Positions 21,202 to 29,886 are shown, counted from the stretch's first letter. The stretch: 64,000 bases of DNA from Emcibacteraceae bacterium (GCA_028281625.1 JANQJN010000078.1:1-64000), one strand, 5' to 3'. The notes: generated by a model from the letters alone, not told the origin. Program-made: numbers and translations.

Positions 21202-21278
21202 GGGCCTGTAGCTCAGTTGGTTAGAGCAAACCGCTCATAACGGTTCGGTCGTAGGTTCGAGTCCTACCAGGCCCACCA
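21202..21278 (+). tRNA. tRNA with CAT anticodon, probably tRNA-Ile2
   Basis: A complete 77-nt cloverleaf with encoded CCA. The acceptor stem is GGGCCTG/CAGGCCC, the D-arm GCTC...GAGC, and the anticodon stem AACCG/CGGTT surrounds the loop CTCATAA (anticodon CAT). The T-arm is GTAGG/CCTAC and the discriminator is A. A CAT anticodon can be elongator Met, initiator Met or Ile2 (C34 changed to lysidine by TilS). The full G1-C72 pair argues against an initiator. The GGGCCTG acceptor stem resembles Ile tRNAs more than elongator Met, so Ile2 is favoured but not proved. Confidence 0.93.
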
Positions 21279-21542: not shown

Positions 21543-21580
21543 AAAACCTTATTAATGCTGTTGTAAATTGGTGGCTTTGT
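21543..21580. repeat. 38-nt dispersed repeat, copy 1
   Basis: This segment matches 58601-58638 at 33 of 38 positions without gaps. The shared ends are AAAACCTTATTAA and GGTGGCTTTGT. Here it covers the last codons and stop of the ABC-type membrane protein gene. The other copy lies in a non-coding region. Confidence 0.75.
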
Positions 21581-22454
21581 CAGAATGAGCAGAATTGTGC
21601 TCTTTATCCTTACCGTTAATCCGGTTCATTATTTCCGAAAGTCTTGACCAGTTTTGAAGAGCCATGGGAAGCACCAAAGAGGATTCAACAAATTCCCAAG
21701 AATAACTGATAATAGCAAATATAGTTCCGACAGTAATTTTAATATGAGTAACTGAGTACCAGAGATTAAAAACGATGAACCCGAGCAAGACCGCAAAAAT
21801 TGCGCCGTAGACATATGCTTCCGTATCTGAGATGCGAACCTCAAGTTTACGTACTCTATCCAAATGGGCAAAAATGCTGTTTCTTTTTCGTGTCTCGAGG
21901 ATGCTGACTTGCCGCTCTGTCTGGTGATTGAGATCTTCATTCAGACGGTAGAACCTTCCGTGACAAACACCATAAATGATTAACATTAAAATGGCCGCCC
22001 CCAGAGCGGCAGCGCAGAGCATAACATGGAAAGAGAATAATATAATCAGTGAAGCGATCAGTTGAACAGATGACGTCATTAGGACCGGCACTTCCTGTTC
22101 CAGGAAATCCACCAACTCCCGGCTCATACCCAATCTCGCATTAATATTCGATACCGGAATATTTTGAGATCTTTTAACAAGTTCATGACCGAGTTCAACG
22201 CGTATATCACCATATGCACGTGTGTCATAAATACGCCTTAAAACGCTCATACCGGTCAGACCAATTAAGATTGCGGAAAGCTGCCAAAGAGGAACTATGT
22301 CATCAGCCAAAAGCCCGTCAATGGCAAGGCCCATAAACATTGGGATGAGTACCATCAACACTGTCTCACAAAGTGTCAGAAACCATGTGACACTAATCGG
22401 TCCTGAAAATGTTTTGAGTAACGTTGTGACTGTTAGTGCTCTACCCCTGAACAT
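21552..22454 (-). CDS. ABC-type six-helix transmembrane protein without ATPase domain
   Basis: A protein of about 300 residues with six hydrophobic segments arranged like the membrane domain of type I ABC exporters (for example VTWFLTLCETVLMVLIPMFM, then VQLIASLIILFSFHVMLCAA). The nucleotide-binding half (Walker A, LSGGQ) is missing; the protein ends soon after the sixth helix, and no ATPase gene is adjacent. The chosen start is ATG 22454, 6 nt after AGAGG; an in-frame GTG lies at 22478. It overlaps the end of the RND gene by 14 nt and is therefore probably translated with it. Stand-alone six-helix ABC proteins are known as a family, but their role is unclear. Confidence 0.8.
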   Translation of the reverse strand: MFRGRALTVTTLLKTFSGPISVTWFLTLCETVLMVLIPMFMGLAIDGLLADDIVPLWQLSAILIGLTGMSVLRRIYDTRAYGDIRVELGHELVKRSQNIPVSNINARLGMSRELVDFLEQEVPVLMTSSVQLIASLIILFSFHVMLCAAALGAAILMLIIYGVCHGRFYRLNEDLNHQTERQVSILETRKRNSIFAHLDRVRKLEVRISDTEAYVYGAIFAVLLGFIVFNLWYSVTHIKITVGTIFAIISYSWEFVESSLVLPMALQNWSRLSEIMNRINGKDKEHNSAHSDKATNLQQH

Positions 22455-25400
22455 CTGCAACCTCTTTCCCTTTTTCACTTTTTAAAAGTGTTTTTAGGTC
22501 TTCGGTAATGGCGATCAGAACGGGTACCAGCAAAAGCATCAAGGCCGTACCAAATATTTCCCCAAAAGCCAGTGATACGGCAGCAGGAATAAGATATTGT
22601 GCTTGCTCCGATGTTTCTGTCAGTAGCGGTAGAAGACCAATAACCGTTGTCGCCGTAGTTAAAAAGATGGCTCTAAATCTTCCCATACCAGCATCCTGAA
22701 GTGCATCGGGTACAGATAGTCCCTGCTCACGGGCCTGATTATAACGGGTTATCAATACCAAACTGTCGTTGATCACAACACCCGTAAGGGCCATCATTCC
22801 GAAAAAAGACAGAACAGAAAGTGATAACCCCATCATAAGGTGCCCCACTGCAGCACCTATAAAACCAAAAGGAACGATGGCCAAAATGATTAGTGGCTGC
22901 CCATAAGATTTAAGTGGAACCGCCATCAACACATAAATCAAAACCGCTGCCAACAGCAAAGCGCGCTTCATTCCTCCCTGAATTTCGCCAATTTCTTCCA
23001 GTTCACCGGCCTTTTTGAAGGTTACACCGGGATATTTGGCGATTAAGACTGGAACGAGCTGACTAAAGACCGCCTGCCCGATTTCCTCAGGAGCGACCAC
23101 CGAGCGATCAATTGATGCAGCCACGGTGTTAACACGTTTGCCATTTTCACGGTGAACAACGCCGGAGATATAACCACCTTTAACGTCTGCAATTGATTGG
23201 AACGGCACCCATTCTCCCATATTGCTTCTTAAATAAGTGTGTTGCAGGTCATCAATCGTATCACGGGCACCAGTGGCATTTTGTACCATCACCCTGTATT
23301 CCGTACCGGATTTTCTGATTTTCTGAACCTCTGCACCGCCAAAAGAATTTCCCAGTTGTGATGCTAACGTCTCCGTATTAAAGCCGAGGGTGCGTGCTTC
23401 CGGTTTTAACGTTATTCCAATTTCTGGCTGACCTGCCTGAAGTGTATCGCGAACGCTGCTCACTCCGTCGATCTTGCCCAGGAAATCTCGCAGATCTTTA
23501 CTGGCCGAACGAAGAAATTCTTCATCTTTTGAATATACCTGGATCTGAAACCCGCCACCAAGTTCTTCGGAACCCGTAAACTGAAGTTCAGTTGTGCCCT
23601 CTACCTGCCCGGTTTGATCACGCCATTCTCGGGTGATATCAAGTATACCAACATCGCCCCTTTCTGATACAGGAGTCAATTCAGCATATATTTGTGCGGA
23701 ACCGGCGTTTGGCATCTGCAGAAACATTGATCTTATCGGTGGTTGGTCCAGGTCATTCAGCTCTTGAATGTCCCTGTTCAGGTTTTCACCAACCGTTCTG
23801 ATGTGCTCCAAATTTGCTCTGGTCAGTTGATAGGGTGCTCTTGCATCCATTTCTAGAGTGATTGTAATAATCTGTCCCGGCACTTCTGGAAAGAAAACAG
23901 ATTTTATTTTTCCCTGCCACATCAACCCTAGTCCCAATAGACCAGCCGAAATGAACAGAATAAGAGCGGAGTAGCGGTACCTTACGGCGCCATTCAGCAC
24001 CGGCTGATAAATTCTGTCACGAAACCGATTTAAGTATCGCTGTGCGATCTTTTGAATTTTTCCCCACCACTGTGCGATTACAAAACGCGGGCGCTGCTCT
24101 ATATCTGTGTGGGCAAGGTGAGCCGGAAGAATGAACTTGCTTTCTATTAAGGAAAAAACAAGTGCGAAAATCACAATCCCGGAAAACCCGGCGAGAACCT
24201 TTCCCAGCGGATTATCAAGCAACAGCATCGGAAAGAAAGCCGCTATTGTTGTAAGCACGCCAAAAACTGTTGCCACCGCAACCTTAGCCACGCCTTTTTC
24301 GGTGGCACGGAATGGATCGCTGTTCTTCTGACGTGCTTCATATACACTTTCACCAACGACAACCGCATCATCCACCAAAATCCCAAGCACAATAATCAAA
24401 CCAAATGTGGTGACATCATTAAGGGAGTAATCCACCCATTTCGATCCGGCAACTGCGATGGCTCCCGCAATGGAAACCGGGATACCCAGAGCCACCCAGA
24501 AAGCCAGACGTACATCGAGAAATATTGACAGCATCAGTATGACCAGCAACAAACCCTGAATACCGTTATTTTTCAGAAGCTCAAGCCGCTCAGATATATA
24601 GTCTGCGCTATCTCCCCAAATGGTTATATCAACATTGGAAGGAAGTTGATTTTTAAAGGAAGCGACAACATTGTGCGCCACTTCAGATACATGAAGAAGA
24701 TTTTCCTTCTGGCCGATAAGTATCTCCATACCGGCAGTTGGGTCACCATTAAAGCGGTAGAGGTAATCTCCTTCTTTAAATGTATCTCTGACTGACGCAA
24801 TATCACCCAGCAGAATAGATGTTCCATCAGCTCTTTCAATGATTGGAATTCGCGCATATTCCGTAGAAAATTTAGCCCTGTCATCTGCTTTAAGGTATAT
24901 AAAACCACCATTGGTTTTTAACGTGCCTGATTGATAATCCAGTGAACTGGCACGGATCTGACTGACCACATCCGCCACCGTCAGGTTTAACCTTTGCAGC
25001 ATTTGCGGTTCCACCTCAATTTTCATTTCTCTTTCAAATAATCCCCAACTATTCAGTCGGGAAAGCTCCGGTTGCGCGAGAAGCTCTTCTCTAAGACGCT
25101 CGGAGAGTTTTTGAAGTGTCGCGGGATCAGTCTGGCCATGAAGGTTCAGATACAGGGCAGGAAAATCGAAGCCGCTGTCATCAATTATTGGACGTTTAAC
25201 AACTGCAGGGAAGTCAACAATTGCATCAATCCTCAAGCGCACTTTATCAAGCAATTTTTGCAGATCCTGTCCGCCCGCTCGGCGCACATATATAGTGGAT
25301 ATATCATTTGTGGACTGAGACGTAATGCTGCGCACGCCTTCCAGACCTTCGAGAGCTTTCTCGATCTTTTGCGTGATATGCTCGTCGACCTGAGCGCCGG

Positions 25401-25566
25401 AAGCGCCGGGGTAGAAGGTTGAAATAGTTACATTTTCCGATGGCATTCTGGGAAAACCTTCAATACGCATATCGGATATTGTGAGAAACCCAAGAAACAG
25501 AATGAAGACCATCATCAAGTTCGCAGCAACAGGGTTTCGGATGAACCAGGCGGTTAAAAAATGCAT
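22441..25566 (-). CDS. RND family efflux pump inner-membrane transporter
   Basis: A 1041-residue proton-driven exporter of the AcrB/HAE-1-like superfamily. It has the expected two-fold layout: helix 1 near residues 12-30, a large periplasmic loop, helices 2-6 near 335-480, then a repeat of this plan. The proton-relay Asp pair is in LGILVDDAVVVGESVYEA of helix 4. The second half holds GVVINDSLVLITRYNQAREQ. It follows the membrane fusion protein gene by 3 bp and overlaps the ABC-type gene. No outer-membrane factor gene is adjacent, so a TolC-like partner would come from elsewhere. The substrate is unknown. Confidence 0.95.
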   Translation of the reverse strand: MHFLTAWFIRNPVAANLMMVFILFLGFLTISDMRIEGFPRMPSENVTISTFYPGASGAQVDEHITQKIEKALEGLEGVRSITSQSTNDISTIYVRRAGGQDLQKLLDKVRLRIDAIVDFPAVVKRPIIDDSGFDFPALYLNLHGQTDPATLQKLSERLREELLAQPELSRLNSWGLFEREMKIEVEPQMLQRLNLTVADVVSQIRASSLDYQSGTLKTNGGFIYLKADDRAKFSTEYARIPIIERADGTSILLGDIASVRDTFKEGDYLYRFNGDPTAGMEILIGQKENLLHVSEVAHNVVASFKNQLPSNVDITIWGDSADYISERLELLKNNGIQGLLLVILMLSIFLDVRLAFWVALGIPVSIAGAIAVAGSKWVDYSLNDVTTFGLIIVLGILVDDAVVVGESVYEARQKNSDPFRATEKGVAKVAVATVFGVLTTIAAFFPMLLLDNPLGKVLAGFSGIVIFALVFSLIESKFILPAHLAHTDIEQRPRFVIAQWWGKIQKIAQRYLNRFRDRIYQPVLNGAVRYRYSALILFISAGLLGLGLMWQGKIKSVFFPEVPGQIITITLEMDARAPYQLTRANLEHIRTVGENLNRDIQELNDLDQPPIRSMFLQMPNAGSAQIYAELTPVSERGDVGILDITREWRDQTGQVEGTTELQFTGSEELGGGFQIQVYSKDEEFLRSASKDLRDFLGKIDGVSSVRDTLQAGQPEIGITLKPEARTLGFNTETLASQLGNSFGGAEVQKIRKSGTEYRVMVQNATGARDTIDDLQHTYLRSNMGEWVPFQSIADVKGGYISGVVHRENGKRVNTVAASIDRSVVAPEEIGQAVFSQLVPVLIAKYPGVTFKKAGELEEIGEIQGGMKRALLLAAVLIYVLMAVPLKSYGQPLIILAIVPFGFIGAAVGHLMMGLSLSVLSFFGMMALTGVVINDSLVLITRYNQAREQGLSVPDALQDAGMGRFRAIFLTTATTVIGLLPLLTETSEQAQYLIPAAVSLAFGEIFGTALMLLLVPVLIAITEDLKTLLKSEKGKEVADVQG

Positions 25567-25569
25567 AAC

Positions 25570-26784
25570 TTAATACTCCCTTTCCTGTGCTCGAACTATT
25601 TGACCCGGTAAAAAAGAAACAAGCGGCGTGGTGGCAACTCGCCATTTAGCTGTTTTTTCTTCTGTTTTAATTATTACCCGGTCTTGACTGCGAAAAAGAA
25701 GGTCTGGTGTCGTACGTTGTAAGCGATCCTCCTGGTCCAGATACCAAATATAGCCCTCCTGGGTATATGCTGATTCCGGTATATCGAGTGCATCCGTGAT
25801 GCTTATACCAGGAAGTGAAACGCGAACAAAATCGCCGGAAAGAACGTCTAAGGAGGTGTTATTACTTATCTCCAGAAAAACTTGATACTGACGTGTTGCT
25901 TCATTGAGGAAACCTCCGCCCATTCGGACCTTCGCTTCTGCAATCATGTTATTGTTCTGATCATAGATCTGAGCAATAGAGCCGCTCAGTGGTTTCTTAA
26001 GCAGGTTCCAGTCCTTACGGCTAAGTTGAGCAATCAACTCAAATGTCCTGTTATCAGAAAGTCTGACAAGCGGATCTCCTGGATTAACCGCCGCACCAAG
26101 GCTTACAAAACGTTCCGTTATGAACCCGGAAAATGGTGCCGTTATTGTTGTATCCTTCAATTGTTTTTTAGCTGCTGCTACACGTGCTTCTGCGGATAAA
26201 ACCGAACTTCTGGCGATTTCCAGTTGTGGCAGTTTAAGCGCCAGATCATTTGGCGGTGTAATCCCGTTTCTTTCAAAATCCCTGCTGACAACTTTTGTTG
26301 CATTTTCAGCATGTAAAAGAGCGAGTTTTGTCTCCTTTAACATCAACTCAGCTGCCGCGAGCTCTGCAGCATACTGACTGTTTTCAAGTTCCATCAGTAT
26401 GGTGCCCGCCTCAACAAATTCACCTGCAAATGCATGATCTGTGACCCGCACAATTTGACCGGATACAGCAGCACGCAGCTCAGTGGACCAGCGTGGCCGC
26501 ACTTCCGTAAAAGAATTTATGATTGCGGTTTGCGGACCTGTTGAAATATGTTCGACAGATACCAATTGTGGGAGTGCCGCTTCCTTGCGTTCCTCTACAT
26601 CAACGGTATCTTCTATCGAACCAAGAAAAAAGATCACCGCCACAAATACAAATAATGAAGATATGATCCAACGGCGGCGTACATTCTTCTTATCAGATAA
26701 CAAAGATTGTTTGACATTGCCGTCGTCCGGCGAACGTCTTTCTGGTTTGCTATTTTCGATGACATCACGGTTTTTATCAGACAT
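25570..26784 (-). CDS. RND efflux periplasmic adaptor (membrane fusion protein)
   Basis: A 404-residue HlyD/AcrA-type adaptor linking the RND pump to an outer-membrane channel. A single N-terminal membrane anchor is at residues about 38-56 (WIISSLFVFVAVIFFLGSI). A lipoyl-like half-motif (VSGQIVRVTDHAFAGEFVEA), an alpha-hairpin region (residues about 140-190; AAELAAAELMLKETKLALLH) and a second lipoyl half (TITAPFSGFITERFVSLGAA) follow in the usual order. It is the first gene of the operon, with an AGAGGTGA ribosome-binding site, and its promoter faces the TetR gene across two palindromic operators. Confidence 0.94.
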   Translation of the reverse strand: MSDKNRDVIENSKPERRSPDDGNVKQSLLSDKKNVRRRWIISSLFVFVAVIFFLGSIEDTVDVEERKEAALPQLVSVEHISTGPQTAIINSFTEVRPRWSTELRAAVSGQIVRVTDHAFAGEFVEAGTILMELENSQYAAELAAAELMLKETKLALLHAENATKVVSRDFERNGITPPNDLALKLPQLEIARSSVLSAEARVAAAKKQLKDTTITAPFSGFITERFVSLGAAVNPGDPLVRLSDNRTFELIAQLSRKDWNLLKKPLSGSIAQIYDQNNNMIAEAKVRMGGGFLNEATRQYQVFLEISNNTSLDVLSGDFVRVSLPGISITDALDIPESAYTQEGYIWYLDQEDRLQRTTPDLLFRSQDRVIIKTEEKTAKWRVATTPLVSFLPGQIVRAQEREY

Positions 26785-26820: not shown

Positions 26821-26875
26821 ATGAAACACACTTGTCTCATAGCGCAAAATATATTATGATACAAGTGTGTTTCAT
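26821..26875. promoter_or_regulatory. Pair of palindromic TetR-type operators between efflux operon and tetR
   Basis: Two 20-bp imperfect palindromes of form ATGAnACAnnnnTGTnTCAT lie at 26821-26840 and 26856-26875. They are also mirror images of each other: an 18-bp perfect inverted repeat joins 26818-26835 and 26861-26878. Their centres are 35 bp apart, and both lie in the 110-bp gap between the divergent MFP and TetR starts. The obvious inference is that the adjacent TetR protein binds both sites and represses both promoters. Confidence 0.85.
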
Positions 26876-26894
26876 AAAAAAGAGTGGAATTAAT

Positions 26895-27473
26895 ATGAAA
26901 AATCCAACTGATAAACGTGCGCAGCGTTCCAAAAAAGCCTTATTACGTGCGGGTTTAGAGCAACTTAATGTTAATCGGGAAGCCTCACTTTCTGACATAG
27001 CTGCTCATGCTAAAGTCGGGCGGGCGACATTGTATCGACAATATGAAAACCGCGAATCATTGATAAAAGCTGTGGCAATATATTGTTTTGACCGCTTTGA
27101 TGAAGTGACGTCAGATCTTGAGAGTGAAGCTCAATCCGGAATGGATGCCATTCGTATTATATTTAAACAAGTTATGCCCCTTACCGAAGAATTTCAATTT
27201 CTGATTAATTTGGAAAATTTCATCGATGATTACCCAGAAATTGATGAAATGAACAAAAAAATTCAGCGGGAAATGTTTGAACTAATCGAGTATGCAAAAA
27301 ACGAAGGGAGTGTCGATAAATCTCTGCCTACCGATTGGATTGCTCATTTTATAGATGGTTTGTTTGTTGCGGGCTGGCTTCAGATAAGAAGTGAAAAATA
27401 CACCGATGAGGAAGTTTCAAAGTTGGCGTTTCAAAGCTTCCGAAAAGCAGTAAGACCATCTATTCCCACTTAG
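26895..27473 (+). CDS. TetR/AcrR family regulator of the adjacent efflux operon
   Basis: A protein of about 192 residues starting with ATG at 26895 (MKNPTDKRAQRSKKALLRAG). The frame is open further upstream, but that extension would run through the operator palindrome and shows no homology. The N-terminal helix-turn-helix covers residues about 10-55 (ASLSDIAAHAKVGRATLYRQ). The C-terminal ligand domain is variable, as is usual. It is divergent from the MFP-RND-ABC operon, the standard arrangement for a local repressor that is released by a pump substrate. The ligand cannot be guessed from sequence. Confidence 0.92.
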   Translation: MKNPTDKRAQRSKKALLRAGLEQLNVNREASLSDIAAHAKVGRATLYRQYENRESLIKAVAIYCFDRFDEVTSDLESEAQSGMDAIRIIFKQVMPLTEEFQFLINLENFIDDYPEIDEMNKKIQREMFELIEYAKNEGSVDKSLPTDWIAHFIDGLFVAGWLQIRSEKYTDEEVSKLAFQSFRKAVRPSIPT

Positions 27474-27532
27474 TAACTTAATAATTTAGACGTAGTAATT
27501 ATACGAAAATTTCCTACGTGATGAGGATTATA

Positions 27533-28186
27533 ATGAAAAAAATATTTTTTGGTTTTTCAATAATATTTGTAACCGCTCAATTCATTTTCTCAATTTCTCA
27601 CGCTGAAACCCGCAACTATGAGGTATTGGTAGATGATAAACTAGCCGGTATGTTGCAGGAAGAAGTAATATTTAGCACGGATGGTCAAACAGAAGTAAAT
27701 TCATTTTTTCAGGTAAAGTTTAAATATCTTTTATGGTCAGTTTCTCTTTCTGAAAAGACTAGCGCTATTTACAAAAATAACTCGTTGCTTTCTTTCAGTG
27801 TTGAAGAAGAAATAGATAATGAAATACGAACTTTCAAAGGAGAGATAAAGGATAAAGTGCTTTCTATAAGAAGCACAGAAGATAAAAATGAGATAAAACA
27901 AACTTTCAACACAGATGATTTTCAGCTATCCAGCCTTAGTTCCGGAAAAACACAATATAACGTTATGAAGAACTTAGTGGCAGGAGATACTATTAAAACA
28001 CTGTTTATATCTGAAATGAAAATTTATCCGATTATAATTAAATCTGTTTCTAAAGAAGCGCGCGAGTCAGGTGATGTGCTCAAAGTACGTCATTCGGGTG
28101 AAAACGGGGATGTTTACTATGAGTTAAGTAGTGAAGGAATTTTGCTTAACTACGAAGAAGACGGAATGAGGATTATTCTAAAGTAA
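27533..28186 (+). CDS. Secreted protein of unknown function, DUF6134-like
   Basis: A protein of about 217 residues with a clear Sec signal peptide (KKIFFGFSIIFVTAQFIFSI, cleavage after SHA near residue 24). The start is ATG 27533, placed 6 nt after AGGA. The mature part is rich in beta-type segments (RNYEVLVDDKLAGMLQEEVI; later SEGILLNYEEDGMRIILK) and looks like a periplasmic beta-sheet protein. The pattern, including a final short sugar-like or lipid-like binding fold, resembles proteins labelled DUF6134, but I hold this assignment loosely. It lies 59 bp after tetR on the same strand. Confidence 0.55.
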   Translation: MKKIFFGFSIIFVTAQFIFSISHAETRNYEVLVDDKLAGMLQEEVIFSTDGQTEVNSFFQVKFKYLLWSVSLSEKTSAIYKNNSLLSFSVEEEIDNEIRTFKGEIKDKVLSIRSTEDKNEIKQTFNTDDFQLSSLSSGKTQYNVMKNLVAGDTIKTLFISEMKIYPIIIKSVSKEARESGDVLKVRHSGENGDVYYELSSEGILLNYEEDGMRIILK

Positions 28187-29058: not shown

Positions 29059-29886
29059 TTGCAAGACAAAAAAATTGGACTAGCATTGGGTGGAGGCGGT
29101 GCAAGAGGCCTAGCACATATCCCTGTACTTGAGACAATCGATAAGATGGAGTTAAGCATAAGCCAACTTTCAGGAACTAGTATCGGAGCGATAATAGGTT
29201 CTTTTTATGCGTGTGGGCTTAAGGGAAAAGAAATCCGAAAAATACTTGATACCATATTGGCAGAGGATGAAGAATTCTGGAGCAGGTTTTTTGAAAAACG
29301 CAGTTCGTTGAAATGGTACGAACTTCTTGCCCCTCAAACAACCGGACCCGGGTTAATCAATGTCGATAAATTCCTGGATTTTCTAAAGGAACACCTGCCA
29401 GTACATTGATTTGAAGATTTAAAAATCCCATTCAAAGTTGTTGCAACAGACTTTTGGAATAGAGATGAAGTTGTGTTTGAAAAAGGAGACCTGCTAGAAG
29501 CGATACAAGCGAGTTTTTCATTAACAGGGCTATTGCCACCAGTACTAAAGGGTCAAAAAGTATTGGTGGACGGGGGAGCGGTTAATCCAATCCCGTTTGA
29601 CATAATTGAAGATTGCGATATTACGATCGCAGTTAATGTATTGGGCACGAAGACGCCAAAGGGAAGTCAACTTGAGCCAGGTATTTTTGACGCAATATTC
29701 AATACATATCAGATCATGGAAGAGAGTATTATTCGTCAAAAAATGCTATTAAAACGGCCTGATATTTATTTAAAGCCTGACATTAGAAATGTGAAAGTGC
29801 TCGAATTTCACAAGACAAAAGAAATATATGAACAAACTCAAGATACTGTCGATGAACTGAAAAGTGAATTGACCAAACTTTTGTGA
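29059..29886 (+). pseudogene. Patatin-like phospholipase interrupted by an in-frame TGA
   Basis: One continuous frame of 276 codons, including the stop, encodes a patatin/RssA-type acyl hydrolase. It has the oxyanion motif LGGGGARGLAHIPVLE, the nucleophile elbow GTSIG (Ser near residue 43) and the catalytic Asp in VDGGAVNPIPFD. It starts at TTG 29059, 5 nt after a strong AAGGGGAG site. A single TGA at 29407-29409 splits it after PVH, and the frame then continues with FEDLKIPFKVVATDFW, which is normal family sequence. A CGA-to-TGA or similar nonsense change would explain this. Translation readthrough or a sequencing error are alternatives. Confidence 0.8.

Follow-up and report, generated by a model that had tools for sequence, protein, structure and literature searches.

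RND pumps draw their substrates mostly from the periplasm and the outer leaflet, and the route by which cytoplasmic compounds reach them is a long-standing question. Their operons often rely on an outer-membrane channel encoded at another locus. A small membrane partner of such a pump is known in AcrZ, which accompanies AcrB and consists of one short helix, about 49 residues in all. ABC-fold transporters that work without ATP are represented by SbmA and BacA; to our knowledge, SbmA has no link to RND pumps. SbmA has neither a nucleotide-binding domain (NBD) nor coupling helices and is proton-driven (PMC13316013). In SbmA and BacA, conserved glutamates harness the proton gradient, and SbmA is an importer of its substrates (PMC13316013).

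The window, that is, the whole stretch of 64,000 nucleotides analysed here, carries an RND efflux operon together with the gene of a stand-alone six-helix protein of the family PF13748 (ABC_membrane_3), hereafter ABC6TM. Compared with HAE1 RND pumps of the AcrAB-TolC type, the RND permease and the adaptor are of the usual kind, whereas the operon lacks an outer-membrane channel gene and has the extra six-helix ABC-fold gene, which overlaps the stop of the RND gene. As in the peptide transporters SbmA/BacA (SLiPT), the transmembrane (TM) domain of ABC6TM is ABC-exporter-like, without ATPase or coupling helices, and conserved acidic residues in the TM helices are common to both. In contrast to SbmA/BacA, however, ABC6TM was not matched by the SbmA_BacA Pfam model at E up to 1, and it has six long helices and a short N-terminal one, whereas SbmA has eight with a peripheral TM0 domain. 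With the Type IV ABC exporters TM287/288, BmrA, MsbA and TAP it shares the fold of the TM domain, but it has no NBD and no coupling helices, and its intracellular part is shorter. The likeness to AcrZ is one of concept only; the two proteins are unrelated in sequence and fold. By analogy, SbmA/BacA is the closest mechanistic precedent for ABC6TM, whose mode of action is probably that of an SbmA-type secondary transporter, although it is not assigned to that family.

In the literature searched, neither a PF13748 member of known function nor a paper on a pairing of PF13748 with RND pumps was found, and no solved structure of the family had been reported as of 2022 (PMC9408558). In tobramycin-evolved Stenotrophomonas maltophilia, the 'ABC transporter six-transmembrane domain-containing protein' SMD_2317, whose name is of the PF13748 type, carried R287Q, one among many mutations in a population in which the RND adaptor gene smeD was also changed (PMC11047544). 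This change is suggestive at most.

Organization of the operon

The features of the locus are summarized in Table 1.

Table 1. Features in and around the pump operon of the window.
Feature	Position	Strand	Remark
ABC6TM (stand-alone PF13748 six-helix protein)	21552-22454	-	300 aa from ATG 22454
ABC6TM, longer version	21552-22478	-	308 aa from in-frame GTG at 22478
Overlap of RND stop with ABC6TM start	22441-22454	-	14 nt
RND permease (HAE1/AcrB-type)	22441-25566	-	1041 aa; ACR_tran, E 7e-150
Periplasmic adaptor (membrane fusion protein, MFP)	25570-26784	-	404 aa; TIGR01730 above cut-off
Divergent TetR-family regulator	26832-27473	+	Diverges at 26832
Secreted DUF6134 protein beside TetR	27518-28186	+	Candidate part of the system
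tRNA-Met (CAT), downstream of rpoD	21202-21278	+	Context only, outside the system

The adaptor gene precedes the RND gene by 3 nt on the minus strand. An overlap of 14 nt between the start of ABC6TM and the RND stop had been reported in the first-pass annotation and was obtained again from the ATG at 22454. A GAGG-type motif resembling a ribosome site lies 6 bases before this ATG, within the RND gene (GGGAAAGAGGTTGCAG-ATG). The sequence of the RND permease shows the proton-relay DD pair (GILVDDAVVVGE), and the two genes by which an HAE1 RND tripartite pump is recognized, an ACR_tran permease and a periplasmic adaptor, are both present. No candidate for an outer-membrane channel gene was found among the ORFs of the window's operon; the channel is presumably encoded elsewhere in the genome. 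TetR genes adjoin the operon in most alphaproteobacterial relatives.

DUF6134-type secreted proteins, next to TetR or pump remnants, were observed in three loci: the window, locus L230 (9915-10826) and locus L200 (7820-8624), the latter two being described below. The DUF6134-type protein is possibly a further part of the pump system.

Family membership and the missing ATPase

ABC6TM matched PF13748 at profile positions 4-237 of 237 (E 3e-58, 197 bits; the cut-off is 27 bits), and a Pfam search gave only a weak match to PF00664. PF13748 genes were collected from order-, class- and phylum-wide genome samples. The family is rare, being found above the cut-off in 16 of 385 genomes of the class sample and in 20 of 399 of the phylum sample. 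Genuine members are mostly 280-315 aa long and have no ATPase domain, and ABC6TM agrees with them in full-length match, length class and lack of ATPase. A fused ATPase was absent from all of the approximately 59 family members. Some PF13748 matches that do carry an ATPase (L025-L028 and L044-L046) were rejected; they scored about 20-28 bits and resemble ordinary exporters.

The third gene of the operon had been described in the first-pass annotation as only the six-helix half of an ABC exporter, with no ATPase gene nearby. Both points were borne out, since the match covers PF13748 in full length, six helices were modelled, and PF00005 (ABC ATPase) had no match on the 105,769-bp contig C110 that carries ABC6TM, the total in the genome being 46. 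The fused or adjoining NBD of a Type IV ABC exporter is thus missing. According to the same annotation, a truncation would be indicated if relatives carried a complete exporter, ATPase domain included, in this place; a fused ATPase was looked for and found in no family member. ABC6TM as a truncation or pseudogene was therefore ruled out by the full-length match and the lack of any relative with an ATPase. ABC6TM is a full-length PF13748 protein, not a truncated exporter. Judging from the sequences, every genuine member examined is ATPase-less, and ABC6TM is not an exporter minus its other half.

The reading frames are intact in nearly all relatives of ABC6TM. In a Vibrio genome (locus L186, 1574-2466; G862), ABC6TM is broken into two ORFs by a frame break or a sequencing error, and the rest of the operon is intact.

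Across 51 PF13748 rows, down to 23% identity, 12 columns are invariant. E30, R73, D77, E119, N176, E180 and H197 of ABC6TM (numbered from the ATG at 22454) are invariant in the family, and R107, E113, D210, E212 and R278 are nearly invariant; all of these residues lie within helices. The acids E30, D77, E113, E119, E180 and E212 of these two groups lie in TM helices. Several conserved acids are located near the cytoplasmic helix ends and may have a structural role.

Predicted structure

The single sequence of ABC6TM gave no match to solved structures, and a profile gave only weak matches to ABC exporters. An AF2 model of ABC6TM was built from 51 sequences, two rows from plasmid records being left out, and had a mean pLDDT of 93.3 and a pTM of 0.85. 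It consists of six long helices (residues 17-49, 54-95, 101-142, 144-188, 191-237 and 242-297) and a short N-terminal helix. A Foldseek search with the model found ABC exporters (TM287/288, BmrA and TAP) with TM-scores up to 0.74, and the six-helix TM fold of Type IV ABC exporters is accordingly present.

The coupling helices that such exporters have in the TM2-TM3 and TM4-TM5 loops were not seen in the model. The cytoplasmic turns comprise 5 residues between TM2 and TM3 and 2 residues between TM4 and TM5, so that there would be no space for the two helices that dock the ATPase. The TM4-TM5 spacing is identical in 50 of the 51 family rows, and that of TM2-TM3 stays within 24-29 residues. About 40 additional residues were required on the exporter side when the PF13748 and exporter profiles were aligned. 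An ABC exporter encoded in this genome was modelled as a control, at modest confidence; its TM4-TM5 segment has 28 residues (195-222) with additional short helices. The ATPase-docking parts thus appear to be absent from ABC6TM in its predicted structure, which strengthens the earlier proposal that the protein does not act as an ABC transporter.

Linkage to RND genes

In the class sample (385 genomes), 8 of the 16 PF13748 genes outside the window's genome adjoin an RND gene. The probability of such adjacency, computed for 8 of 17 under an assumed 1% chance per gene, is P ~1e-12. The gene order is adaptor-RND-ABC6TM in Alphaproteobacteria and ABC6TM-adaptor-RND in Vibrio; in the Vibrio loci examined, the gene after RND groups with AraC-type regulators. 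The RND-ABC6TM junction is an overlap of 4-14 nt in most alphaproteobacterial loci, with a 37-nt gap in L083, and the ABC6TM-adaptor junction is an overlap of 11 nt in most Vibrio loci. No NBD gene was seen in the RND-linked ABC6TM operons examined.

The linkage was also analysed from the side of the pump, by searching the window's RND protein in 289 class genomes, 80 Vibrio genomes and 229 genomes of Gammaproteobacteria. The five RND relatives at 65-72% identity in the class sample all have ABC6TM adjoining; the relatives tested at 34% identity or less have none, and a sharp gap separates the two groups. In a tree of 97 RND rows, the linked pumps fall in one clade of 30 rows, 29 of which are linked, against 0 of the 67 rows outside, where the neighbourhood test spanned 1.5 kb on each side for most unlinked RNDs and a farther gene would escape. 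The same span revealed the Vibrio order in 17 of the 18 Vibrio-clade loci, and the eighteenth, L126, has no ABC6TM gene in a wider stretch either. The lone unlinked row of the 30-row clade is the Vibrio locus L185. A second RND tree (mixture model, 39 rows) agrees with one linked clade.

Since the pairing recurs in other bacteria, the PF13748 protein probably works with such pumps, as far as gene neighbourhoods can tell. The first-pass annotation had suggested looking for the gene beside RND genes in other genomes, and it was indeed found there, in two orders. Its claim that ABC6TM acts with the RND pump gains from the clade-wide linkage, from these two orders and from the linkages to a distant RND and a MacAB-like pump described below, but is qualified by the frequent occurrence of the family without any RND.

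Recruitment, other pumps and solo members

In the ABC6TM tree, solo members separate the RND-linked proteins of Alphaproteobacteria from those of Vibrio, so that two groups result, and a single clade of RND-linked proteins was rejected (p-AU 3e-7). A single recruitment of ABC6TM to RND fits the RND tree but was discarded on the basis of the ABC6TM tree. This result suggests either that ABC6TM was recruited repeatedly or that solo genes escaped later.

A third linkage was found in L090, where an RND gene distantly related to that of the window is followed, about 20 nt on, by an ABC6TM gene of a remote branch. In L230 (2226-10826; G1122 contig C18), a PF13748 gene lies inside a MacAB-TolC-like operon that also holds an FtsX/MacB-type permease, a beta-lactamase-family protein, an ABC ATPase, an adaptor and an outer-membrane channel. 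This is the one case in which an ATPase gene shares an operon with ABC6TM, and the ATPase is accounted for by its own FtsX/MacB-type permease. The partners of PF13748 are tripartite export systems more generally, RND pumps being one kind of them. A divergent TetR gene and a DUF6134-like gene accompany the L230 operon.

The gammaproteobacterial locus L200 (6111-8624; G1057 contig C73) contains a short adaptor and a broken DUF6134-like gene; of its RND only the C-terminal quarter is left, at 55% identity, and ABC6TM is absent there. The locus has the look of a degraded operon related to that of the window.

Many PF13748 relatives have no pump alongside. Among the neighbours of the solo genes are regulators of the TetR (L053, L061, L063, L073 and L077), AraC (L050 and L065) and MarR (L059) families and MFS transporters (L050, L055 and L082). 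The TetR-adjacent L053 is a second PF13748 copy in the window's own genome. In three cases a fatty-acid hydroxylase (PF04116) is encoded directly upstream (L056 8766-9647, L079 8581-9528 and L089 6631-7542), which may be a hint of lipid-like substrates. Since many relatives stand alone beside regulators, ABC6TM is not an obligate RND subunit, and the PF13748 protein is probably a transporter in its own right, not only a pump accessory.

Possible functions of ABC6TM

Our favoured explanation, to which we give slightly less than an even chance, is that a tripartite RND efflux pump is encoded here together with an ATPase-free ABC-fold secondary-active transporter that feeds the periplasm for the pump. 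Two ABC6TM chains would form a dimer enclosing a central cavity. The proton gradient, not ATP, would drive alternating access via the conserved charged residues E30, R73, D77, R107, E113, E119, E180, H197, D210, E212 and R278, in a manner comparable to the glutamate ladder of SbmA/BacA. An amphiphilic compound present in the cytoplasm or the inner leaflet would be moved by the dimer to the periplasmic side, and the co-produced adaptor and RND pump would collect it there and carry it out through the outer membrane. The gene overlap would hold ABC6TM and the RND protein at a fixed ratio. Export to the periplasm and handover are proposed because of the place of the gene beside export systems. Against this reading stand the missing SbmA_BacA match, the six helices in place of eight, the conserved acids near cytoplasmic helix ends, which may be structural, and the direction of SbmA, which imports. 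Gene linkage, moreover, is no proof of a handover of substrate.

ABC6TM might also transport independently of the pump, perhaps as an importer or as a lipid/fatty-acid flippase, and be merely co-regulated with it by the same compounds. The TetR, AraC or MarR regulators that adjoin solo genes, the fatty-acid hydroxylase upstream in L056, L079 and L089, and the import of substrates by SbmA (PMC13316013) are consistent with this. Co-regulation alone, however, hardly accounts for a gene that has kept its place in the operon, mostly with overlapping starts, in all but one of the 30 rows of one RND clade, and we regard this explanation as rather unlikely. Tight linkage with one RND clade, overlapping genes and the retention of two different gene orders would also suit a non-transporting accessory that, like AcrZ, binds the RND trimer or the adaptor within the membrane and tunes substrate range or stability. 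Such a role is unlikely, given that ABC6TM has all six helices of a transporter-like domain and charged residues invariant family-wide, that many PF13748 members have no RND nearby, and that the family also occurs in the MacAB-like operon, whose permease is unrelated to RND.

A true ABC permease using an ATPase encoded elsewhere could find its partner among the 46 ABC_tran matches of the genome, some of which are possibly unpaired, and the ATPase gene within the L230 operon may be read in the same way. The coupling helices missing from the AF2 model, the RND-linked operons without an NBD gene and the FtsX/MacB-type permease that explains the L230 ATPase make this very improbable. For a decayed, non-working ABC exporter that lost its ATPase part, only the short length relative to a complete exporter can be cited; with a full-length match, a family ATPase-less throughout, invariant residues and frames that nearly all relatives have kept intact, it is hardly credible.

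A wider form of the feeder reading is put forward more tentatively: PF13748 would be a second family of ATP-free ABC-fold transporters beside SbmA/BacA, and one RND clade would act as a two-stage relay, in which a secondary-active exporter of ABC fold fills the periplasm and the RND pump encoded beside it empties it. If true, the very few ABC-fold proteins known to work without ATP would be joined by a second, far less studied family. A motorless ABC-fold gene kept in one RND clade, apparently after repeated recruitment, makes a feeding step from cytoplasm to periplasm testable.

Genomic site

PF13748 had no match in 13 same-genus genomes. The segment from rpoD to tRNA-Met is conserved in same-genus genomes, and the sequence after the tRNA differs among those read. 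The pump operon is an accessory piece at this variable site beyond tRNA-Met. A second copy of the tRNA-Met 3' end was not found in the window. Integration of a mobile element at tRNA-Met was therefore not adopted, and only a variable site is shown. Beyond the operon, two patatin-like ORFs (29059-29409 and 29473-29886) lie in one frame with an in-frame stop between them and are perhaps one interrupted gene.
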